Source of the DNA: Opitutaceae bacterium
GTDB taxonomy: Bacteria > Verrucomicrobiota > Verrucomicrobiia > Opitutales > Opitutaceae
Assembly (NCBI GenBank): GCA_027490995.1
Contig: JAIXWY010000003.1
Span: 310,001-374,000 of the forward strand
DNA: 64,000 nucleotides
Reading direction: 5' to 3'
The notes under the pieces are model-generated. The model saw only the letters and a list, made by a program, of their open reading frames with translations. It ran no database searches and had not been told where the DNA came from. Both the position numbers and the translations under genes were made by a program. Shown here one piece after another: positions 5,949 through 46,790 of the stretch (within the stretch, counting starts at the first letter, position 1; each line of letters opens with the position of its first letter).

Positions 5949-6710
5949 ATGATCCTCCTGGGTGTGAACATCGACCATGCTGCGACTGTGCGGCAGGCGC
6001 GTTATCGGCAGCACTCCGCCACGGTGGGCGGCGCCGTCGAACCGGATCCGGTGGCCCTCGCGTTGGTCGCGGAGCGCGCCGGGGCGGACGGCATCACGGT
6101 GCATCTCCGCGAGGATCGCCGACACATCCAAGAGCGCGATGTGTGGCGTCTGCGCGAGTGTATGGGGACGCGACTCAACCTAGAGATGGCATGCACCCCG
6201 GCCATGATTGACTTCGCACTGCGTCTCCAGCCGCACAGCGTCTGCCTCGTACCGGAAAGCCGCGAAGAGGTCACGACCGAGGGCGGTTTGGACGTGGTTG
6301 GCCACCGCGGTAAGGTCCAAGAGGTAACCGAGGCGATGCGCGGGGCGGGGATCGTGACCAGCCTCTTTATTGACCCGGATCCCGCGCAGATCGTCGCCGC
6401 GGCCGAGTTGCGTGCTCCGTGGATCGAGTTGCACACCGGTGCCTACGCCAATTGCTATCCGGTGGATCCCGCGGGCCGCAGCCGGGAGTGGCAGCGCTTG
6501 TGTGCCGGGGCAACGCGTGCGCATGGGCTCGGCCTCGTGGTCAACGCCGGTCACGGCATTAACTACGTCAACGTCACCGAGGTGCGTGGTCTACCGCACC
6601 TCCACGAATGTAACATCGGGCACAGCATCATCAGTCGCGCCCTCTTCTCGGGCATCGCCGAGGCGGTGGCGGAGATGCGCCGTCGCCTCAACGAGCGTCC
6701 TCACGCATGA
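5949..6710 (+). CDS. pdxJ: Pyridoxine 5'-phosphate synthase
   Basis: Condenses 1-deoxyxylulose 5-phosphate with 3-amino-2-oxopropyl phosphate to form pyridoxine phosphate (DXP-dependent vitamin B6 pathway). The TIM-barrel protein has 253 residues, close to the standard length, with LGVNIDHAATVRQAR at the N-terminus, the ITVHLREDRRHI active-site strand, ELHTGAYA, and NAGHGINYVNV for phosphate binding. It is the first gene of a four-gene chain; its stop overlaps the acpS start by ATGA at 6707-6710. Confidence 0.97.
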   Translation: MILLGVNIDHAATVRQARYRQHSATVGGAVEPDPVALALVAERAGADGITVHLREDRRHIQERDVWRLRECMGTRLNLEMACTPAMIDFALRLQPHSVCLVPESREEVTTEGGLDVVGHRGKVQEVTEAMRGAGIVTSLFIDPDPAQIVAAAELRAPWIELHTGAYANCYPVDPAGRSREWQRLCAGATRAHGLGLVVNAGHGINYVNVTEVRGLPHLHECNIGHSIISRALFSGIAEAVAEMRRRLNERPHA

Positions 6711-7129
6711 GCCTCAGCCTCGTTCCTGGCGGCGTCTTGGTCAGCCTCGGCTCCGATCTGGTGGATGTCGACCGCATCCGTGGGGTTTGGGACCGGCAGG
6801 GGGAGCGTTTTCTAGAGCGGGTTTTCACGGAAGAAGAGCGGTGCTACTGCCTTGGAATGAAGTATCCGCATAAGCACTTCGCGGCGCGGTTCGCCGCCAA
6901 GGAGGCGGTCGCGAAGGCGTTCTCGACTGGGATCGGGCCGCTGCTGTCGTGGAAGTCCGTCTCGGTGTACCATGGCGAGCGGATGGATCCGCGCGTGCGG
7001 CTCGATGAGAAGGGGCAGGCCCTGCTCCACGAGGCTGGAGCGACCCACGTGTTGCTGACCTTGGCCCACACGGATGGCCAGGCGCTGGCGGTCGCGGCCT
7101 TGGTGCGGGCAGAGAAAGGAAGCGCATGA
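6707..7129 (+). CDS. acpS: Holo-[acyl-carrier-protein] synthase
   Basis: Transfers 4'-phosphopantetheine from CoA to apo-acyl carrier protein. The 140 residues contain both magnesium-binding signatures: GSDLVDVDRI with Asp17, and FAAKEAVAKAF with Glu66. The first eight residues lie ahead of the conserved core, but the ATG is fixed by a 4-bp ATGA overlap with pdxJ. The 3' end overlaps the next gene by ATGA at 7126-7129. The pdxJ-acpS pairing is familiar from other bacteria. Confidence 0.96.
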   Translation: MSLSLVPGGVLVSLGSDLVDVDRIRGVWDRQGERFLERVFTEEERCYCLGMKYPHKHFAARFAAKEAVAKAFSTGIGPLLSWKSVSVYHGERMDPRVRLDEKGQALLHEAGATHVLLTLAHTDGQALAVAALVRAEKGSA

Positions 7130-30021: not shown

Positions 30022-31197
30022 TCAGGTGGCGCGCTGGCTCGGCCGATTGGACTGGCGGCGTGCACGAAAAGCGCCGGGGGATGATTCAGTGATGCGCTTG
30101 AAAACGACGCACATGTACTCGACGTGCTCGAACCCGGTAAGCTCCGCGATCTTTTTCAGCGGGAAGTCCGTCTCGGTCAGGAGCTGCTTGATCCGCATGA
30201 CCTGCAGTCGACGGATCTCAGCTTGCGGGGAGCGTCCGAGGAAGCTTCGGAAGCGTTTCTCGAGCTGACTGCGGGAAAGGGTGGAGTGACGGAGGACGTC
30301 CTCGACGTTGATGCCGGTGCACGCGTGCTCGCGAATGTAACCGATCGCGGCAGCCACACCGGGATCCTCGATGGCCAGGATGTCGCTGGAGCGCCGGGTG
30401 ACGACGCCCGTCGGATCGACCCGGCGATCAAGCGCGGGAGCCTCGGCCCCATCCATCAGTGCGGCCAGCGTCTCCGCCGCGAGATATCCGGACAGGAAGG
30501 CGTTCGTACAAACACTGGAGAGCGGGGGATAGGCGAGGTCGCAGCGCGCACCGTCGTTGTTGGCTCCGAGGACCGCTACCTCCTCGGGCACGAGTAGGTT
30601 CACCGTTTGGGCCGCATGGATCACCTGCAGCGCGCGCAGGTCGTTGCAGGCCATCACACAGGCTGGCTTGGGGAGCTGCCGAAGCCACTTCGCGAGCTGC
30701 CTCGTTTCCGCCAGGTCCCACGCCGGATCGCTATGGTTCGGGTAGTCCGTATCGAACACGTCGACCGCATGTCCGGCGAGCTGGACTGCTTCGAGGAACC
30801 CGTCGCGCCGCTCGCAGGACCAGCCGTTGTTGCGGAACCCCGTGAAACCGTAATTGCGGTAGCCGCGCTCGAGGAAGTGCTCGCCACCGAGATGACCGAT
30901 GGCGGCGTTGTCCGGCCGAATTTTCGGCACGCCGGCGAACGGTGGCTCGTCGTTGAGGTCGACCAGCGGCAGACGCAACTCGGCGCACGCCTGCACCAGC
31001 TCCGGGGTGGTGTGGCGGCTGATCACCCCTTTCCAGCGTCGCTGCTGCAGCCAGAGTGGATCGGACTCCGCGCGCGCCTCGTCGTCGAGAAATGCGTCCC
31101 ACGGGCGGTGCGAGCGTGCATAGTGATTGATGCCGCTAAGCATCGGCTTGCACTCTTCGAAGCGGGTCATGAACACGAGTAGGACTTGAGGTGTCAT
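30022..31197 (-). CDS. XylR-like regulator (sugar-binding domain plus AraC HTH), copy 1
   Basis: A 391-residue transcription regulator. The N-terminal ~270 residues form a LacI-type ligand-binding domain (PQVLLVFMTRFEECKPML; LVDLNDEPPFAGVPKIRPDN; GGEHFLERGYRNYGFTGF; VPEEVAVLGANND). The C-terminal ~100 are an AraC-type double helix-turn-helix (INVEDVLRHSTLSRSQLEKR; KKIAELTGFEHVEYMCVVFK). This is the E. coli XylR layout, so it probably senses a sugar. The ATG at 31197 overlaps the stop of the upstream membrane-protein gene by 4 bp (ATGA), so the two are co-translated. A paralogue is at 43861-45027. Confidence 0.9.
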   Translation of the reverse strand: MTPQVLLVFMTRFEECKPMLSGINHYARSHRPWDAFLDDEARAESDPLWLQQRRWKGVISRHTTPELVQACAELRLPLVDLNDEPPFAGVPKIRPDNAAIGHLGGEHFLERGYRNYGFTGFRNNGWSCERRDGFLEAVQLAGHAVDVFDTDYPNHSDPAWDLAETRQLAKWLRQLPKPACVMACNDLRALQVIHAAQTVNLLVPEEVAVLGANNDGARCDLAYPPLSSVCTNAFLSGYLAAETLAALMDGAEAPALDRRVDPTGVVTRRSSDILAIEDPGVAAAIGYIREHACTGINVEDVLRHSTLSRSQLEKRFRSFLGRSPQAEIRRLQVMRIKQLLTETDFPLKKIAELTGFEHVEYMCVVFKRITESSPGAFRARRQSNRPSQRAT

Positions 31198-33617
31198 GAG
31201 GCCGGGGCGGTCGTCAGGCGGTTCGCAAGATCGGGAGGAAGCAAGCGCAGGCCTTCCTGCCAAAGTGGGGAAGCCGCGTCGAGGAGACGGGACTTCTTGG
31301 CCTGAGCGAGCAACCGGTAAAGCCCACCTGTCGTGAGCGCGCGCAGTCGCGGTGGTGTCGCCTCGCGGACGCAGCGTTGGAGATGGAGGAGGGCGCGATC
31401 GGTGTTGCCGGTTTGCTCGAGGAGGGCCGCCAGCGCGACGCGACGGTCCCAGGCGAGCGAGCGGTCCGCGCCGGCATCGAGCGCGCTGAGCAAGGGGCCG
31501 ATCGCACCGCTGATCGCAGCGGGCTCGCCGCCCGCAGCCGCGATGCGCGCGAGTGCGATGCGTGCGCCGAGATCCGCGGGAAAGCGACGCAGCTCCGGCA
31601 CCACGCCTTCGGCCAGTCGTTTCTGGCCGGTCTCAAGAAAATACTCAGCCTGCAGGCTGAGCGTGCGCGGCTCGCTTTGTTCTTCGACCACTTCCAGCAC
31701 GATGACCGACTGATCCTCGAAGCCACCGATCGGCGGCAACCGATAAGGAATGGGTCTCAGCCAACGGAGGGGCACCCAGCGTTGCAACGCGCCAAGGAAG
31801 GCCTGCGCGGCCGGCGGGGCGTCAGGCGAAGGGCGGGTCGCGTCCTCTAGGAAGGTGTCCCAGGAGGGAAGCACAATGTACCGGACATCCCGCTGCAGCA
31901 GCAGCGCCTGCGCTTCGTCGGGGGAGGAGGCGCGCGCGATGCGCACCGCCGCCCGTAAGCCGTCCTCGTTCTCCCACGCGAGGCTCGCCACGCCACGGAG
32001 CGCGGCGTGATGGGCGAGCGACGCACTGACCTTGGGCGACGCGAGGACCACCGCGCCGGAGGCGCCGCTGCGTTGGGAGAGCCACGTCGCGAGGTCCCGC
32101 TCAACCACCGCTTCCACATCCGCCTGCGTCAGTTCGCGCCGACTCGTGGCGTCGAGCGGTGGGCGCGCGAGGATCGCTCCGGGAAGCAAAGCCAGGATAC
32201 CGATGAGTGCGGTCCACCCGCGGCCCCGCCCATTGGTCGAGAACACCGCGACGACGAGGAGCGCGGCTCCCGCTGGGGCCATCAAGCGGAGATGGGTGCT
32301 TCCGAGGGCGAGGAGCACCACTACCGGCACGAGGAGAGCCAAGCTCCGTGCTCGTTCGCGCCGGAGTGCGATGGCCATCGCGCCGATTCCGATCGCCAGC
32401 ACGCTGAGGAGCGCGAGCGCGTCCGCGCTCGCGCCTTCGTTCGCGAGCCACGCTGCCAGCGAGCTCGCCGCCGTTTCCGAGCCGGGCGTGAGTCTCGACG
32501 CGAAGGGATCCCGCGCGAGCAGATTTCCACCGCGCTCGGAACAGAGCCAGATCAGTCCTGCCACGGCTGCACCACCGACGCAGGCCGCCGTGGCTAAGGC
32601 GGCCTTGTCGAGCGCGGGCGCCGACTCGGTCGCACGTCGCAGCCGGCTCCACTGCGCCAGTCCTTCACCCAGCGCCAGCCACGCCGCGGCGGTCAGGACT
32701 CCGGGTTGAATCGCCGGATCGGCGCTGAAACTTACGGCGCGCGACTGAGCGATGGCGGCGAGGAGGGTGGCGAGGGCGCCGGCTGCGGACCAGCAGCGCC
32801 AAAGAGATGGGGCGGGGGTGGTCTCCCGGGAGGTTCCGCGTGCGTTCCACAGCTGTTGCCCGACAATCCCCACGACGATGGCGAGGATCACCGGGAGGCC
32901 AGTCACGGGATCAATCGCCGCGGCGAGTGCACCGAGCGCGCCGGCGGAGGAGCTTCGGCGGCATGCCGTTGCTGCGACCGTGGTCGCGAGGGCTCCACCG
33001 AACGCCAGCAGACTCCCCGTGAGTAGCGCCCACGCGAGGCCTCGGGGATCGAGCGCGCCGGGAAGATACGCCGAGGCGAGGGGCTGAAGGAGCACCCAGC
33101 CAAGCGCAAGCACGCCGGCTGCTCGCGCGGAGAAGGCCCGCCACATCCATGTGCCACCGAGAACGAGGAAGGCGAGCGCTGCCGCGGGGTCCGCCCAGAG
33201 GGCGGCGCGCTCTGCGGCCAGCGCGAGTGAGACATCACTCATCGCGTGGATGAGCCACGCGGTCCCAGCGACCCAGAGCGTGTAGAGCGTGGAGGCATGA
33301 TCGGCCCGACCCTCCGGCGCGTTGTCCCAGTCGACGCGCCCCCCTCGCAGCTCGCCCGTGGCGAACAGGTGCTGGGTACGCGCGATCCAGCCGTAGGTCT
33401 CCTGCTCCCGCAGGGGAGAAATCCACTGCCGTCGACCGTCAGCGTAACCGGTTGGCGACGCAGAGTCAGCGGCCACGGCGGTCACCGACCAGCCGGGAAT
33501 GGACTCGACGTGCCTCAGCCGCGCCTGGTGCCCGAACACCGTGGCGACCAGAAGACCGACGGCGAGAAGCCAGCCGAGCAGCCAGCGGCGGTCGGTATTC
33601 GGGTGGGGATCGAACAT
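31194..33617 (-). CDS. Large polytopic membrane protein, GT-C/oligosaccharyltransferase-like
   Basis: An 807-residue protein. About 11-13 hydrophobic helices fill residues 10-500. The first long outer loop contains EQETYGWIARTQHLF and GRVDWDNAPEGRADH, which recall the acidic catalytic loop of STT3/PglB-type transferases, though no WWDYG motif stands out. A soluble C-terminal part (about 520-807) ends in helical repeats of TPR type (ARIALARIAAAGGEP; RVALAALLEQTGNTDRALL). I chose the ATG at 33617 (MFDPHPNTDRRW), 45 residues inside the frame. It overlaps the downstream regulator by ATGA and is divergent from the FG-GAP gene. Function is inferred only from the fold. Confidence 0.6.
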   Translation of the reverse strand: MFDPHPNTDRRWLLGWLLAVGLLVATVFGHQARLRHVESIPGWSVTAVAADSASPTGYADGRRQWISPLREQETYGWIARTQHLFATGELRGGRVDWDNAPEGRADHASTLYTLWVAGTAWLIHAMSDVSLALAAERAALWADPAAALAFLVLGGTWMWRAFSARAAGVLALGWVLLQPLASAYLPGALDPRGLAWALLTGSLLAFGGALATTVAATACRRSSSAGALGALAAAIDPVTGLPVILAIVVGIVGQQLWNARGTSRETTPAPSLWRCWSAAGALATLLAAIAQSRAVSFSADPAIQPGVLTAAAWLALGEGLAQWSRLRRATESAPALDKAALATAACVGGAAVAGLIWLCSERGGNLLARDPFASRLTPGSETAASSLAAWLANEGASADALALLSVLAIGIGAMAIALRRERARSLALLVPVVVLLALGSTHLRLMAPAGAALLVVAVFSTNGRGRGWTALIGILALLPGAILARPPLDATSRRELTQADVEAVVERDLATWLSQRSGASGAVVLASPKVSASLAHHAALRGVASLAWENEDGLRAAVRIARASSPDEAQALLLQRDVRYIVLPSWDTFLEDATRPSPDAPPAAQAFLGALQRWVPLRWLRPIPYRLPPIGGFEDQSVIVLEVVEEQSEPRTLSLQAEYFLETGQKRLAEGVVPELRRFPADLGARIALARIAAAGGEPAAISGAIGPLLSALDAGADRSLAWDRRVALAALLEQTGNTDRALLHLQRCVREATPPRLRALTTGGLYRLLAQAKKSRLLDAASPLWQEGLRLLPPDLANRLTTAPAS

Positions 33618-33754
33618 GCGGTCGAGGCGGTCCGTCGGTACGGCGTGACCAGATCCCGATCCCAGCGGTTTTTCCTCGGTGGAGCAACCCCGTACCCGTG
33701 CCGCCTGAGGGATTGCCGAGGGTGCGCTCACCGGCCTAAACTCTCTTACCATCC

Positions 33755-39966: not shown

Positions 39967-40051
39967 GGCGAGCGATCAGGAAGGAAGTAAATCAGTACAC
40001 CTCGCAGCGGCAATCCTGCGGCGAGGGAAACGCACGGAGGATCGAGCAAAG

Positions 40052-40081
40052 AAAAAAGGCCGGTGGCATGTGCCACCGGCC
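40052..40081 (-). terminator. Rho-independent terminator of the TonB receptor gene
   Basis: An 11-bp perfect stem (GGCCGGTGGCA, 40058-40068, and TGCCACCGGCC, 40071-40081) is followed on the minus strand by six T (40057-40052). It lies 38 bases after the receptor's stop codon. It is the clearest intrinsic terminator in the window and separates the receptor from the FG-GAP lipoprotein-TPR pair, which therefore needs its own promoter in 39967-40051. Confidence 0.92.
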
Positions 40082-40118: not shown

Positions 40119-43100
40119 TTAGAACTCGAACGAGTTCGTCAGCGAGATCACGCGCGGCTCCGCGATGCGGAAGGCGCCCGGGCTGCCATCCGGCTGCACG
40201 GTCAACGGGATCAGGCGATCGGTGGCGAAGAGATGGCGCGCGTTAAGCTGGACGCGCCACTTCACGCGATCCGAGAGGATCTTCATTTGGTAGCCGATCC
40301 ACAGATCGATCGCGTCCTCGGTCGGGCCGTAGTACGGGTTGTTCACGTCGTACCCATCCTTGGTCGAGTTCAAGCGATAGCCGGTGACCTGCTTGTCCTG
40401 CCAGCGGTAGCTGCCGCCGATGTTGGCGTCCTTGAAGCGGCCGGACTTGAACGCGTAGTTGGCGGTGGCGTTGAAGCGCCACGGGCGCAGCTCGGTGACG
40501 TTCGAGTTGTTGAGGGCGAGCGCCAGCTTGTAGGCCGGGAGCGTCTCGTTCTCGAACTTGTCGCGCACGGTGCCGCCGGAGCCGCGCTCCAGCGCCCAGT
40601 TGCCGTTACCCCAGAGGCGCATGTCGCCCATCGGGCCGGCGTAATCCTTCAGACGCTTCTCGATCCAGTCCGAGTACGCCTTGCCGATGGACAGCCGCTT
40701 GGCGGTCGTCTTGGAGGCGTTGATGGAGAGGTCGAGGCCATCGATCGGCTGGGCGGCGAGTTCGAACTCGGTACCCTTCGACAGGGTGTCGCCGGTGACG
40801 GCCACGCTGTTCATGCTCCAGTTGCCGGAGCCGGTGGCGTAGCCGGTCATGCCCCACGCGGACTGGAAGGAAGCCGGTACGGGCTTGGCGAGCCAGTCGT
40901 CCGTCGAGGCGCGCTGGATGTCGTACTGGCGGTCGATGGAGATCTGGCTGTAGGTCTGTTGGTAACCGGTGGAGCCCGGCTGGCGGCCCTGCGAGTCGGG
41001 AACCAGGTTCCCGGCATCGGCCGGCTGCCAGCGCAGGATGTTACCCGCGCCGAACTTGGAGCCGGCGGAGGTCGTGCCATAGTTACCATCGCCCGGCCAG
41101 TTGCCGCTGTTCGCCTTCAGCTGGACGGCGGCGGCCTGACCCCACGCCTCGCCGGCGCCGATGAGGTAAGCGTTGCCGAGTTCACCCGAGAGGGTGGCGT
41201 TGGAGACGGACGTCTCGTAGCGGTTGACCTTGAAAGCGACCTTGCCGTTGAGGGCGGTGATCGCGAAGCCGTAGTCTTCGGTCTTGCCGGAGGGCGACGG
41301 GATCAGGCCACCGACGATGTCCTTGCGGGAGGCATCGGGCTGGAAGTTCGCGGAGCGGCTGTAGAACACGCTCGCCGTCAGGTTGCCAGGGAGCTTCTCC
41401 ATGATCGCCTTGGGCGCATGGCCCACGATGCTGAACGTGTGCGTCTGGCCATCGACGATGCTGTAGAGACGCTCCTTGTACTTGCCGGTGCCCTGCTCGA
41501 GCTGACCGGTCGGGAGACGCCACTCGGGATCGGCGTAGTTGGTGACGATGCCCGCGTCCTTGCGCGGGTCGCCCGCGTTGAAGTTCTCGGCCACGTCCTT
41601 GCGCCAGCCGATCATCGGAACGAGTGCGCCGTTGAAGAAGTAACCCTGCCACACAAAGACCTGCGAGTTGATCTCGTCGCGGTTCTTGGAGGCCTGCAGG
41701 TACGGACGATTGTCATCGTTGTACGACGGGTCGTTCGGATTTACGACCGGCAGCGGGTAGGCCTTGTAGGTCTTGGTCGTCGCGTCCCAGTTCCGCACAG
41801 TCGTCGAGACCGGCTGCTGGATCGCGGTGATGCGCGGCAGGTTCAGGCCGCTGGCGGACGTGGCATTGGTCAGCGCGGGCCCGAGGTAGGTCAGGCTGGA
41901 GATATCGCGGGAGGCCTGGCCGACCGACGAGTTGGCGGTCTGGGCGTAGCCTGAGCCGGTGTACCAGTTGGCCCACGATGTCTGGAGCGTGTCGGCGCGT
42001 TGCATCGCGCCGCTGTAGGTCATCACGTGGCGGCCAAGGATCTTGGCCAGCGGCGTTTGACGATCCATGAAGTCATTGAAGTCGAGTTCGCCGAAGACCG
42101 TGCCGCGGGCGGACTCGCGCTCGCGGACAACGCGACCGCTGCCGGCCGAGCCGCCGCCGCCGATGACGACGGGGCGACCCACGTTCGGGTTCGGGGACCC
42201 ATCGATGAACGTGCGCATGATATCGACCGAGATCGCGGACGCATCCCAGGCGAGGAAGTTGCGGTAGCCCCACTGCGTGTCCTGCTTGTCGTACGCCACC
42301 TCGACGCCGAGGCGGTTGTTCAGGAACGTCTGGTTGAGCGTGACGTTATAGGCGTCGAACTTGCTCGTGTTGCTCCGGTTCTCGCCCTCGATCAGATTAT
42401 CGTAGAAGTTGAAGATGCTCGGATCGGTGAGCGACTTGGCCTTGTAGGGGTTGATCACGTACCCATCGAGGCGGAGATTGCTTGCGATGTTGTTGTAGGT
42501 GACGATGCCCTTGTACGAGCCGTTTGACGTCTCGTTGTTGGCCGGGGGCAGGTTGGTCGGGAAGGTGTACGGGCTGGCCGCGAACGCTATGCCCGGCGTG
42601 GGGCTGTCGGCGTTGAACGTCACGATCTGTCCGTCGAAGATGCGACCACCGGCGGCGCCGACGTACGGGCTGTAGCGCGCGTTGGCCCGGTCCGTGATCT
42701 GGCTGCTGTTCTGCCAGTCGTAGGTCGCCTTGTTCATCGACGTGAACCACGGCGAGATGGCATCCATCGGCGGGGTGTAACGCGGATTGATGCCCTTGAT
42801 GTCACCCGACTCCACGTTCGCGCGGATGGAGGTCTTCGCGCTGCCCTTGGAGAAGAGCTTCGGCTGCCAGTTCACGGCGCCGTACATGCGGTGGTCATCA
42901 CGGTACGCCGGCTTCATCCGGTAGTTCGTGTTGTCCATCACCGCCGAGACGCGGACCGCGAGTTCGTCGCGGAGGATGACCTTGTTAAAGTCGACCACGC
43001 CGCGGACGGAGCCGAAGGTGGCAACCTGCAGCTCGACCTTGTTCGCATCGCGGAACGAGGCGGTGTTGAGGCTGCTGTTGATCACGCCGGCCGGTGAGCC

Positions 43101-43652
43101 GATACCGAAAAGGATCGAATTTGGACCGCGCTGAAGATCGACGCGACCGACATTGTACGAATCCCACGGGATATCGGTGAGGAAGAAGTCGCGGAGATTG
43201 TCCGCCGCCGCGAGACCGCGCACGCGGGTGTTGGCCACCGGGCGGTTATAGGAACCGTCCTGAATGATTGCGCCGTCGCCGCCGCCGCCGAAGTTGCCGC
43301 CTTGTCCGGCGACTTCGGTGCCCGTCGTGTAGACGAGGAGGTCGGCCGAACTCTTCGAGTTCGTGTCCTTGAGGAACTTCTGGGTGACCACACTGATCGC
43401 CGAGCCCACGTCCTTCAGCTCGGTGCGCAGACGCGTGCCGGCGAGCGTGTTCTTGGCGGAATAACCCTCATCCTCGTCGGCCTCGATGACGAATGGCGAA
43501 AGCTCAATCGTCTCGTCTGCGGAGGGCTTGGCCGCAGAACTGGAGGGCGTGGAGGGAACGGCCTGCGCCGAAAGGCGGGCCAGCGCGAGCAGGCTAAGAG
43601 CGGGCAGGAGCGCAAAGGCTCGGGCCCGCGAGAGCACACGGTACTTGGTCAT
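40119..43652 (-). CDS. TonB-dependent receptor (Verrucomicrobia type)
   Basis: A 1177-residue outer-membrane importer energised by TonB. A signal peptide (about 1-30, ending LARLSAQA) is followed by a short conserved stretch, ETIELSPFVIEADEDEGYSA, that resembles a TonB box, then the plug domain (NTLAGTRLRTELKDVGSAIS; GRVDLQRGPNSILFGIGSPA) and a long beta-barrel. The last residue is Phe (TNSFEF), the usual outer-membrane-protein end. The ATG at 43652 was chosen over a 40-residue upstream extension. Two hairpins and a palindromic site lie upstream, and a XylR-like regulator gene is next. The substrate is probably a carbohydrate, inferred from neighbours; no SusD partner is present. Confidence 0.93.
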   Translation of the reverse strand: MTKYRVLSRARAFALLPALSLLALARLSAQAVPSTPSSSAAKPSADETIELSPFVIEADEDEGYSAKNTLAGTRLRTELKDVGSAISVVTQKFLKDTNSKSSADLLVYTTGTEVAGQGGNFGGGGDGAIIQDGSYNRPVANTRVRGLAAADNLRDFFLTDIPWDSYNVGRVDLQRGPNSILFGIGSPAGVINSSLNTASFRDANKVELQVATFGSVRGVVDFNKVILRDELAVRVSAVMDNTNYRMKPAYRDDHRMYGAVNWQPKLFSKGSAKTSIRANVESGDIKGINPRYTPPMDAISPWFTSMNKATYDWQNSSQITDRANARYSPYVGAAGGRIFDGQIVTFNADSPTPGIAFAASPYTFPTNLPPANNETSNGSYKGIVTYNNIASNLRLDGYVINPYKAKSLTDPSIFNFYDNLIEGENRSNTSKFDAYNVTLNQTFLNNRLGVEVAYDKQDTQWGYRNFLAWDASAISVDIMRTFIDGSPNPNVGRPVVIGGGGSAGSGRVVRERESARGTVFGELDFNDFMDRQTPLAKILGRHVMTYSGAMQRADTLQTSWANWYTGSGYAQTANSSVGQASRDISSLTYLGPALTNATSASGLNLPRITAIQQPVSTTVRNWDATTKTYKAYPLPVVNPNDPSYNDDNRPYLQASKNRDEINSQVFVWQGYFFNGALVPMIGWRKDVAENFNAGDPRKDAGIVTNYADPEWRLPTGQLEQGTGKYKERLYSIVDGQTHTFSIVGHAPKAIMEKLPGNLTASVFYSRSANFQPDASRKDIVGGLIPSPSGKTEDYGFAITALNGKVAFKVNRYETSVSNATLSGELGNAYLIGAGEAWGQAAAVQLKANSGNWPGDGNYGTTSAGSKFGAGNILRWQPADAGNLVPDSQGRQPGSTGYQQTYSQISIDRQYDIQRASTDDWLAKPVPASFQSAWGMTGYATGSGNWSMNSVAVTGDTLSKGTEFELAAQPIDGLDLSINASKTTAKRLSIGKAYSDWIEKRLKDYAGPMGDMRLWGNGNWALERGSGGTVRDKFENETLPAYKLALALNNSNVTELRPWRFNATANYAFKSGRFKDANIGGSYRWQDKQVTGYRLNSTKDGYDVNNPYYGPTEDAIDLWIGYQMKILSDRVKWRVQLNARHLFATDRLIPLTVQPDGSPGAFRIAEPRVISLTNSFEF

Positions 43653-43710
43653 TGGGGGGCTTGAGGGTAGTAGGACAAACACCGCCTTCGGGGATGACCC
43701 AAGGGCAGAG

Positions 43711-43727
43711 CCGGAGGTAGCCTCCGG
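43711..43727 (-). promoter_or_regulatory. Hairpin in the TonB receptor leader
   Basis: CCGGAGG (43711-43717) and CCTCCGG (43721-43727) form a perfect 7-bp stem with a 3-base loop. It lies 59-75 bases upstream of the receptor start on the minus strand, inside the probable 5' untranslated region. It may stabilise the message or control elongation. Confidence 0.4.
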
Positions 43728-43758
43728 GAGTCCTAGACTAGAGAACCCAACGCCCGAG

Positions 43759-43776
43759 GTAAATGAGATCACTTAC
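43759..43776. promoter_or_regulatory. 18-bp palindromic operator candidate
   Basis: The sequence GTAAATGAGATCACTTAC has the symmetry GTAA-N-TGA-NN-TCA-N-TTAC, with 14 of 18 positions matching their complement about the centre between 43767 and 43768. It lies 107-124 bases upstream of the TonB receptor start and about 85 bases after the end of the neighbouring XylR-like regulator gene. It is the best candidate site for that regulator or its paralogue. Confidence 0.5.
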
Positions 43777-43810
43777 ATCTTGCTTGAGAAATTTTGCCGA
43801 CCCGCCTTTC

Positions 43811-43832
43811 GGCCTTTCCCATCGGAAAGGCC
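43811..43832. terminator. Perfect hairpin after the XylR-like regulator gene
   Basis: GGCCTTTCC (43811-43819) and GGAAAGGCC (43824-43832) form a 9-bp stem with a CATC loop, 28 bases after the regulator's stop on the minus strand. No T-run follows directly, though the next minus-strand bases include AAAATTT about 15 bases on. It probably ends or reduces transcription from the regulator into the receptor gene. Confidence 0.5.
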
Positions 43833-43860
43833 TCCCTTTGGAGCCGCTTCAGCGCGGGCG

Positions 43861-45027
43861 CTATTGAGAATTCCCCGTCGCCTGCCCGCGCCGGTATGCC
43901 CCCGGCGATAACCCCGTGACTCGTTTGAAGAGGACGCACATGTACTCGACGTGCTCAAAGCCCGCCAGAGCCGCGATTTTCTTCAGCGGGAAGTCAGTCT
44001 CTTGCAGTAATGTCCTAATTGTTGCTACTTGAATGCGTCTGATCTCCGCCTGCGGGGTGCGTCCGAGGAAGTGCCGGAATTTGCGTTCCAGTTGGCTGCG
44101 GGAGGTGTGGGAATGGCGAACCACGTCGTCGACCGAGATGTTTTGGCAGGCGCGTTCCCGGATAAAGCCGAGGGCCGACGCCACCACCCGGTCAGCAATG
44201 GCCAGAACGTCGGTGGAGCGCCGTGTCACCACGCCGACCGGTTCGACCCGCTCAAGGGTCACGGTATCCTGTCCTCCGGCTAAGGCATGGGTCAGGATCT
44301 CGGCGGCCCGGTAGCCGGATTGAAAGGAGTTGGGTGCGACGCTCGAAAGGGGAGGGAAGCTGAGTTCGCAACGATTGAGATCGTTGTTCACGCCGAGGAT
44401 GGCGACTTCCTCCGGTACGAGAAGCCCAGCTTCGCTGGCTGCGGAGAGCACCTGCTGGGCCCGAAGGTCCATGCACGCGAGGATTCCAACCGGCTTCGGT
44501 AGACTCCTGAGCCACACGGTGAGTTGTTCGATTTGCGGCGGATCCCAGACCGGCCGATTGTCGCCGGGGTAGGGGATCTCCAGACGCCGGCACGCATGCC
44601 CGACCAAGGCGAGGGATTCGGCGAATCCGTCGCCCCGCTCGTTGGAGTACGACTCGCTGGAAAACCCCACGTAGGCGAAGTGCCGATGTCCTCGCTCCAG
44701 GAGGTGCTCAGCGGCGAGGTGACCGATGGCTCGGTTGTCCGGCCGGATCTTCGGGACACCCGGGAATGTCGGTGTGTCATCGAGATCCACCAAAGGGATA
44801 CCGAGTTCCGCGCAGGCTTTGACTAGGGTATCCGACGAGTGACGGGTGATGACCCCGCGCCAGGGACGGCTGCGCAGCCAGGTCGGGTCCTCCAAGGCGC
44901 GCGCTTGATCGTCGTGATACGCCGCCCAGACTTGATGGGTGCGCTCGTAATGCGCGATGCCGCGCAGCATGTGCGCGCTCTCCCCGAAGCGGGGGAGAAA
45001 GACGAGCAGCACCTGGGGCCGGTTCAC
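43861..45027 (-). CDS. XylR-like regulator (sugar-binding domain plus AraC HTH), copy 2
   Basis: A 388-residue regulator of the same type as copy 1: a LacI-like ligand-binding domain (about 1-270, with LVDLDDTPTFPGVPKIRPDN and VPEEVAILGVNND) and a C-terminal AraC-type DNA-binding domain (about 285-385, with ISVDDVVRHSHTSRSQLERK and KKIAALAGFEHVEYMCVLFK). A TTG at 45063 would add 12 residues, but the GTG at 45027 gives VNRPQVLLVFLPRF, which aligns with MTPQVLLVFMTRF of copy 1, so I prefer it. It lies between the GH1 gene and the TonB receptor gene on the same strand. Confidence 0.9.
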   Translation of the reverse strand: MNRPQVLLVFLPRFGESAHMLRGIAHYERTHQVWAAYHDDQARALEDPTWLRSRPWRGVITRHSSDTLVKACAELGIPLVDLDDTPTFPGVPKIRPDNRAIGHLAAEHLLERGHRHFAYVGFSSESYSNERGDGFAESLALVGHACRRLEIPYPGDNRPVWDPPQIEQLTVWLRSLPKPVGILACMDLRAQQVLSAASEAGLLVPEEVAILGVNNDLNRCELSFPPLSSVAPNSFQSGYRAAEILTHALAGGQDTVTLERVEPVGVVTRRSTDVLAIADRVVASALGFIRERACQNISVDDVVRHSHTSRSQLERKFRHFLGRTPQAEIRRIQVATIRTLLQETDFPLKKIAALAGFEHVEYMCVLFKRVTGLSPGAYRRGQATGNSQ

Positions 45028-45094
45028 GCTCGGGAGACTGTTTGGCGCTCCGGTCGATGGCAAGCAGCCCTCGCACTCGCCTCGAGGGGCTTGC

Positions 45095-46525
45095 CTACAG
45101 GCCGGCGCCGCGCCGCCGGATCAGGTCGCGGTACCACGTGAACGAATCTTTCGGCGTCCGCTTCTGGGTGCCGTAGTCCACGTGGATCAGGCCGAAGCGA
45201 TCCTTGTAGCCTTGAGCCCACTCAAAGTTGTCCAGAATCGACCAGTAGAAGTAGCCTTCCACCGGGATGCCTTCGCGGACGGCGCGTGCCATCCCTCCCA
45301 AATAGCGCTGCAGGAAATCAATTCGCTGCGGATCGTGCACGTTTCCGTCCAGGTGCACGAAATCCGTGGTGCAGACTCCATTTTCCGTGAACACGACGGG
45401 GAGCTGATAGCGTTCGTGGAGGAAGCGCGCCGCCCAATACGGCGCATCCGGCGCGACTTGCAGCCACGCGAGCGTGCCGCGCGGGTTCCCCGGGCCCCAG
45501 CCGCCGGGGACCCGCTCCGCCTCGCCGCGGGCTGCCGCTCGGACGGGAAAACCCGAGTAACAGTTGTAGGCGAAGAAATCGATTGGCTGAGAAATGAGCG
45601 CCAGATCCCCGGTTCGAATCCTCGGCAGATCCGCCGCAAAGGCCTCCATGCCGTCCTCCGGATAGCGTCCAAGAACGATGGGATCCGCCCACCAAGCGAG
45701 GTTGTCGAAGCCTCGCTCCGTGGAGCGAAAGGTGTCCGCCCGCGCGGCGTTGCGATCCTTGACCGACCGACTCGCGGGAATGCGCTCGCGCCCGGTCTGC
45801 GCCAGGGAAACACGCGCCTGGCCGGGGCTCGTCGCCCGAATCGCCTGCACCGAGCGTCCATGCGCGAGTAGGAGGTGGTGCGCCGCCTTCAGGCACTTCG
45901 CGAAGGACAGGGTCTGGCCTGGCGCGAAGACGCCGTGCTGCATCCCGAGACCCACAATCACGGGTGGCTCGTTCAGCGTGATCCAGTGCCGCACTCGGTC
46001 ACCGAGCCGTCGGACCACCACCTCGGTGTAGGCACCAAACCACTCTACAATGTCTCGGTTCTGGAATCCTCCGCGTTTTTGCAGCGCCAGCGGCAGGTCC
46101 CAGTGATACAAGGTCACCCAGGGCTGGATCCCGGCCGCCAGGAGCGCATCGATCAGTCGATCGTAGAAGTCGAGCCCCCGGGCATTCCCCCGGCCAACAC
46201 CCCGCGGCAGGACTCTCGACCACGACACCGAAAGTCGGTAGGCATCAAGCCCAAGTCGGCGCATCCATCGGACGTCCTCCCTCCAGCGGTGGTAATGGTC
46301 GCACGCGAGGTTGCCGTTGTGGTCCTCGAAAATCTTCCCCGGGGTCTGGGAAAAGTGATCCCAGATCGAGGGTCCGCGCCCGCCTTCGTTCCATCCGCCT
46401 TCGATCTGGTAGGCCGCGGCTGCCGCCCCCCAGACGAAGTCCTTGGGTAATGCAGCGGACGCCGTACCACGGTTCGGGCGGCGGCGGAGAGAGTGGGAGC
46501 TAGGACTGAGGCGAAGAGGCGGCAT
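45095..46525 (-). CDS. GH1 beta-glucosidase-family glycosidase
   Basis: A retaining beta-glycosidase of family GH1, 476 residues, with the complete catalytic pair: the acid/base Glu in TLNEPP (about 186) and the nucleophile Glu in FTENG (about 381). FVWGAAAAAYQIEGGWNEGG opens the barrel, and YFYWSILDNFEWAQGYKDRF closes the active site. No export signal is clear, so it probably acts in the cytoplasm on imported oligosaccharides. The ATG at 46525 is used; a GTG two codons upstream is possible. It precedes the regulator copy 2 gene by about 67 bp on the same strand. Confidence 0.95.
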   Translation of the reverse strand: MPPLRLSPSSHSLRRRPNRGTASAALPKDFVWGAAAAAYQIEGGWNEGGRGPSIWDHFSQTPGKIFEDHNGNLACDHYHRWREDVRWMRRLGLDAYRLSVSWSRVLPRGVGRGNARGLDFYDRLIDALLAAGIQPWVTLYHWDLPLALQKRGGFQNRDIVEWFGAYTEVVVRRLGDRVRHWITLNEPPVIVGLGMQHGVFAPGQTLSFAKCLKAAHHLLLAHGRSVQAIRATSPGQARVSLAQTGRERIPASRSVKDRNAARADTFRSTERGFDNLAWWADPIVLGRYPEDGMEAFAADLPRIRTGDLALISQPIDFFAYNCYSGFPVRAAARGEAERVPGGWGPGNPRGTLAWLQVAPDAPYWAARFLHERYQLPVVFTENGVCTTDFVHLDGNVHDPQRIDFLQRYLGGMARAVREGIPVEGYFYWSILDNFEWAQGYKDRFGLIHVDYGTQKRTPKDSFTWYRDLIRRRGAGL

Positions 46526-46790
46526 GACCACAGGGAGCCCCGAGACTAGCAGATCGCGCCCGTCCGGGAATGAGAGTCCTTACCACGCCCATGAGAATCG
46601 TCGGCACTCGCCTCGCTCGGGCAGAGCGTCCCTCCTCGGCGTGCCCGCAAAGGCCGCCGCAGTCACAATTGGGTCCCGTGACGCTCCGGATACGGGGTGC
46701 CGGCAAAGGATGCGTACTCTTCGGCAAGGGATGAAAGTGGTTGGAGGTTGAACAATCAGTGCCGTTGTTAAAGCTCACGGTCCTCTCGCT
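46526..46790. promoter_or_regulatory. Divergent intergenic region between the GH1 gene and nuoA
   Basis: The 265 bases must hold promoters for both the GH1 gene (-) and the complex I operon (+). No convincing -35/-10 pair is seen. At 46566-46583, GGGAATGAGAGTCCTTAC matches the palindromic site upstream of the TonB receptor at 13 of 18 positions, mainly TGAGA and CTTAC, but is not itself symmetrical. GTCAC and GTGAC form a small inverted repeat around the AATTGGG at about 46660. Confidence 0.35.

Follow-up and report, generated by a model that had tools for sequence, protein, structure and literature searches.

An XylR-like regulator gene is followed by a TonB-dependent receptor gene in an Opitutaceae genome, within a 64,000-nucleotide stretch of contig JAIXWY010000003.1 (the window). 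The intergenic region between them, 43653–43860, extends from the regulator gene to the receptor start codon and had been predicted to hold an operator in the form of an 18-bp palindrome. This raises the question of what element lies between the two genes, which protein would read it and which genes it would govern.

The palindrome and the direct repeat

The predicted dyad, GTAAATGAGATCACTTAC, is indeed present between the regulator and receptor genes at 43759–43776, and is symmetrical at 14 of its 18 positions (7 of 9 pairs). As a palindrome it lies near chance level and not clearly beyond it. The window contains 185 18-bp dyads with at least 7 of 9 pairs, just above all ten first-order resamples (154–183), and when the intergenic region was resampled 2000 times, 28.6% of the resamples contained at least one dyad of such quality. 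In the genome-wide scan proposed with the original prediction, the dyad is the sole match in the 3.47-Mb genome with up to two mismatches, but a control read backwards equals it (one match forward, one in reverse).

On the receptor strand, 43762–43797 is occupied by a direct repeat, GCAAnnnnnCTCAA...GYAAnnnnnCTCATT, with a period of 21 bp. Each half-site consists of two short boxes, GYAA and CTCA, about one helical turn apart. The dyad spans the promoter-proximal half-site and part of the -35 region (Table 1). This half-site overlaps the -35 element and lies at a fixed distance from the -10 element, which is the arrangement of a class II AraC-type activator promoter. A scan for consensus sigma-70 promoters and for terminators found neither at the receptor site or at the GH1 site described below. 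Activator-dependent promoters are often weak, and the missing sigma-70 consensus therefore does not decide on a class II promoter.

Table 1. Coordinates of the putative operator half-sites, promoter elements and genes in the window
Feature	Position	Strand	Basis or remark
Receptor promoter, distal half-site GCAAAATTTCTCAAG	43783..43797	minus	
Receptor promoter, promoter-proximal half-site GTAAGTGATCTCATT	43762..43776	minus	core of the reported palindrome
Receptor promoter, -35-like TTTACC	43758..43763	minus	sequence; position conserved in relatives; covers the half-site's last two bases
Receptor promoter, -10-like TAGTCT	43735..43740	minus	sequence; 17 bp past the -35
TonB-dependent receptor gene (presumed target)	40119..43652	minus	Plug domain; ATG at 43652, then signal-like peptide (by eye)
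GH1 promoter, distal half-site CCGACGATTCTCATG	46590..46604	minus	
GH1 promoter, proximal half-site GTAAGGACTCTCATT	46569..46583	minus	
GH1 promoter, -10-like TAGTCT	46543..46548	minus	20 bp past the half-site
GH1 glycosidase gene, second presumed target	45095..46531	minus	NCBIfam GH1 beta-glucosidase
XylR-type regulator gene	43861..45063	minus	Peripla_BP_3 and AraC HTH; start codon uncertain (TTG)
Second XylR-like regulator gene	30022-31263	minus	

The regulator–receptor gene pair recurs in relatives. The intergenic regions of nine genomes, including the source genome, have one block in common on the receptor strand, GGCAAnnnnnCTnAA followed by GYAAnnnnnCTCATT, from which a few copies depart. 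Its halves are 21 bp apart, and TTYAC or a similar sequence comes next, with TAnnnT 17 bp further on. The training set consists of 16 distinct sites following a regulator, each directly before a receptor homologue. When the first 15 bases of these sites are matched against the sites themselves, the match peaks at a shift of 21 (0.625), while no other shift from 15 to 27 exceeds 0.383. The direct repeat matches on average at 9.4 of 15 positions, compared with 3.8 in shuffles. In an alignment of 20 sites, the invariant columns fall on letters of the -10 element and of the two boxes in either half. The receptor site is almost the same in the four closest genomes, which hence count as about one observation.

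Further sites in the window and in relatives

A related partial sequence had been reported before the GH1 gene at 46566–46583. It is borne out, as this stretch contains the same half-site, GTAAGGACTCTCATT, and a 36-bp matrix built only from receptor promoters finds a site at the GH1 promoter, 46569–46604. This matrix scores the receptor site at 44.1 and the GH1 site at 14.0, with the next place in the window at 9.0 and the best control at 6.6. The GH1 gene and the regulator gene, separated by a gap of 31 bp, probably form one operon. A further half-site, GTAAAT before the FG-GAP lipoprotein gene, did not hold up: the letters are present at 39987–39992, but no operator scores there. This candidate was rejected: similar letters are found in the closest genome, but nothing at this place scores as an operator, and the receptor and FG-GAP genes are separated by a hairpin that a run of T follows. 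The hairpin, at about 40040–40080 on the minus strand and also present in the relatives L037 and L038, is by eye a likely terminator. Ten other genes of the window, among them spermidine-synthase-like, epimerase, TerB-like, NADH dehydrogenase and histidine kinase genes, were also scanned and then left aside.

The matrix omits the -10 columns. Trained on the 16 sites and run over 657 kb of regulator-anchored DNA, in which some contigs occur twice, it found 24 held-out distinct sites at a score of at least 14, compared with none for the reversed matrix. The regulator-anchored loci thus contain 40 distinct sites, 16 used for training and 24 held out. Downstream of the held-out sites, TAnnnT lies at exactly 21 bp in 17 cases, at 20 bp in two and at 22 bp in one; it is never at 18, 19, 23 or 24 bp. 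Two broader counts draw in part on loci retrieved by a model, R1, that has the -10 columns built in: TAnnnT is at +21 in 53 of 80 sites, training sites among them, and in 0–3 at any other offset from 10 to 30, and the matrix at a score of 12 over 994 kb finds 58 held-out distinct sites, compared with 5 for the reversed matrix.

Searches of whole genomes gave the following picture. A simple pattern with at most one mismatch has 67 matches in 50 of 150 family genomes drawn evenly from a larger group, whereas the reversed pattern has 15. Exact matches make up 21 of the 67 and include training sites. With up to two mismatches, the pattern finds the receptor and GH1 promoters of the source genome and two other places, and the reversed control also finds two. 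A sequence-only model returns two sites in the source genome at E ≤10 among 150 of 282 candidates scored, namely the receptor and GH1 promoters, both of which are among its 20 training sequences. Across 57 relatives, with 87 candidates scored per genome, the model has matches in 15 genomes at E ≤0.1. The ten genomes that match at E ≤0.01 have close regulators, but eight of the ten were sources of training sites. Of the other two, G009 is almost the same as one of the eight, and only G028 is independent.

Between genomes, the site is found close to the regulator. Among 20 regulator loci at ≥62% identity, 18 have a site at most 700 bp downstream of the regulator, a figure that describes the training set and is no test of the matrix, since all 18 loci carry training sites. 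This count leaves out the fragmentary matches L112 and L056, and L110 and L111 contain only part of the regulator. The two loci lacking a site are L100 and L110, neither of which has a receptor homologue in the DNA examined. More broadly, the L100, L103 and L110 regulators (61–64% identity) have no site within 700 bp downstream, and no receptor homologue occurs in the DNA examined. When duplicate loci of the same contigs are counted once by hand there are 38 distinct regulator loci, of which 24 have a site of score ≥12 in the 700 bp downstream and 14 do not. Of the 23 loci with organism names, two from one isolate are labelled only 'bacterium', and the rest carry the names Opitutaceae, Opitutia or other Verrucomicrobia. 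Nearly all 23 are metagenome-assembled.

Two irregularities were seen among these loci. The regulator genes of L112 (about 6983–6990) and L056 (about 6413–6416) shift frame near residue 327–329, in the first HTH. The change, which in L112 falls at a run of A, may be a sequencing error or real. At 9323 in L045, a paralogue's locus in another genome, the repeat is altered, with a box ending in CGCAGC, and this may reflect a changed specificity.

The regulator and the competing readings

The adjacent regulator has an N-terminal sensor domain (PF13377, E=3.9e-33) and a C-terminal double-HTH AraC domain, for which PF12833 and PF00165 are both above cut-off. Its residues 14–392 align with E. coli XylR (4fe7) at E=4e-43, through both domains. 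The domain matches of its DNA-binding part are to AraC HTH families, with none to LacI HTH. Three features of an XylR-type system are present: the sensor, the AraC domain and, as sequence, the direct-repeat operator.

If the 18-bp palindrome were itself the operator, it would be bound by a symmetric dimer in the LacI style, which is very improbable. Seven pairs are kept in the source genome and in three close relatives, and the 16 training sites average 4.9 of 9 pairs, compared with 2.3 in shuffles. This excess arises because conserved letters happen to pair. Seven pairs are found in only two of the 16 sites, those of the source genome and its closest group, while the other 14 have 3–6 pairs with the direct repeat intact, and at the GH1 promoter the count is 2 of 9 pairs, against 9 of 15 repeat matches. 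A palindromic operator also leaves the conserved distal half unexplained, and is at odds with a regulator that matches AraC rather than LacI HTH families. The palindrome was rejected as the operator because such dyads are near chance and their symmetry is not kept in relatives while the direct repeat holds. The original prediction therefore stands in part: the element is operator-like, most likely belonging to the adjacent XylR-like regulator, but what is conserved is a direct repeat of 36 bp, and the dyad is eroded in relatives.

A different question is whether the repeat is bound chiefly by another AraC-family protein, such as the second XylR-like regulator of the window, or by both paralogues. 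This is unlikely, though not far-fetched. The two regulators share 58% identity over 399 residues, and their putative recognition helices share 10 of 15 and 13 of 16 residues. It had been argued that similar HTH domains predict similar sites, and the likeness of the helices makes this plausible. In two genomes, moreover, relatives of the second regulator have a variant of the site close by (at 0.3 and 1.4 kb), ahead of a GH26 gene. However, neither matrix nor model searches found an operator site near the second regulator in the source genome, and between genomes the site tracks the first regulator, as seen in the 18 loci above. That the repeat reflects chance or shared lineage and regulates nothing is hardly credible. 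The near identity of the four closest genomes would favour it, but the motif occurs before different genes and in other genera at a fixed distance from the -10, and the held-out sites, for which the reversed matrix gave no counterpart at the same score, speak against it.

Beside the second regulator gene, an 852-aa protein is encoded at 31194–33752 (minus strand), overlapping the start of that gene. At E 0.001 it matches nothing in Pfam or NCBIfam, and homologues occur in 5 of 20 relatives' loci compared (L043, L044, L047, L051 and L053).

The reading preferred here, held with good confidence from sequence comparison, takes the palindrome for one half, the promoter-proximal one, of a head-to-tail operator, with the adjacent XylR-type regulator as its putative class II activator. 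The repeat, its conservation, the spacing to the -10 and the identity of the genes downstream are direct results of computation.

Target genes, proposed mechanism and known systems

The 24 held-out sites precede genes for TonB receptors (5), GH130 (5), GH1 (4), GH2 (3), GH26 (2) and a DUF5060 protein (1), with four sites lacking a target gene (two in L045, one in L055 and one in L046). GH5 and an acetyl-xylan-esterase-type gene were added by sites from pattern or model searches. The GH130 Pfam family is that of beta-1,4-mannooligosaccharide phosphorylase. Of the GH2 genes, only that in L101 has mannosidase-type Ig domains, and the L109 frame is short (195 aa) with the N-terminal GH2 domain only. 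The GH26 domain was scanned in L105, and the L053 gene is 76% identical to the L105 gene. The DUF5060 match is barely over its cut-off (28.4 vs 27.2 bits). Such enzyme families together are typical of beta-mannan or glucomannan breakdown.

The genes that the sites precede point to a sugar derived from mannan or glucomannan as ligand rather than xylose; judging from relatives, a manno- or glucomanno-oligosaccharide is the probable inducer. Against a mannan ligand, the GH1 gene of the source genome meets the NCBIfam beta-glucosidase model. The GH130 gene tested (L044) and the GH2 gene tested (L101) reached no NCBIfam cut-off, the best GH2 matches being beta-galactosidases. The best NCBIfam matches of the receptor are siderophore receptors, far under cut-off. 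The source genome has one GH26 and one GH130 gene elsewhere, neither of which carries a site (best score 5.5 in loci of 3.8 and 4.0 kb). The regulon in this genome therefore looks local, comprising the receptor gene and the GH1–regulator operon.

In the proposed mechanism, the two boxes of a half-site would each accommodate one HTH motif of a single AraC domain. As the halves are 21 bp, or two turns, apart, a dimer would lie on one face of the DNA. With the proximal half running into the -35 and a weak -10 following 17 bp on, the promoter would be of the class II activator type. The regulator, once bound to its oligosaccharide ligand, would bring RNA polymerase to the receptor promoter, where transcription is predicted to start near 43728. 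The similar promoter of the GH1–regulator operon would also be switched on, resulting in positive autoregulation. Binding by the source genome's own regulator, activation, autoregulation and the ligand are putative elements of this scheme.

A wider reading can be offered tentatively, at somewhat less than even likelihood. One operator of 21-bp period, common to paralogous XylR-type activators, may govern beta-mannan use across Opitutaceae, with the paralogues cross-talking on the same sites and sensing different oligosaccharides. The lineage-wide beta-mannan set would then comprise the TonB receptor, GH26, GH5, GH130, GH2, GH1 and acetyl esterase. In Bacteroidota, hybrid two-component systems hold the corresponding regulatory place. 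The site provides a defined candidate operator and regulon, open to experimental test, for the use of polysaccharides in Verrucomicrobiota, and the motif would allow receptors of unknown substrate to be given a likely regulon from the promoter alone. Literature titles and the starts of abstracts, with few subscription journals covered, describe no such operator for Verrucomicrobiota or Opitutaceae.

The operator is ordinary in kind, and its particulars are new. The regulator resembles E. coli XylR (PDB 4fe7/4fe4) in its LacI/GalR-like sensor and AraC domain and can be aligned with it over nearly its full length. The two differ in their targets, as E. coli XylR serves xylose genes, whereas a TonB receptor and a glycosidase are the presumed targets here and the ligand is probably another sugar. 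AraC itself also uses an upstream looping site, O2, and has a sensor domain that differs from the XylR type. AraC-family proteins are reported to bind direct repeats despite forming symmetric dimers because their sensor and DNA-binding domains are independent (PMC9723621). At PBAD (I1-I2), two direct-repeat half-sites are described that partly overlap the -35 and from which activation occurs (PMC7408454), as proposed for the receptor promoter. Another parallel is Vibrio XylRA, a LacI-AraC regulator of the same domain order. It is reported to regulate a polysaccharide utilization locus positively, and its motif, two direct repeats present at several promoters, is likened to E. coli XylR sites (PMC12125979). 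As described there, XylRA differs in belonging to Gammaproteobacteria, in keeping the xylose-binding residues, in its AT-rich repeats and in serving beta-1,3-xylan genes (PMC12125979).
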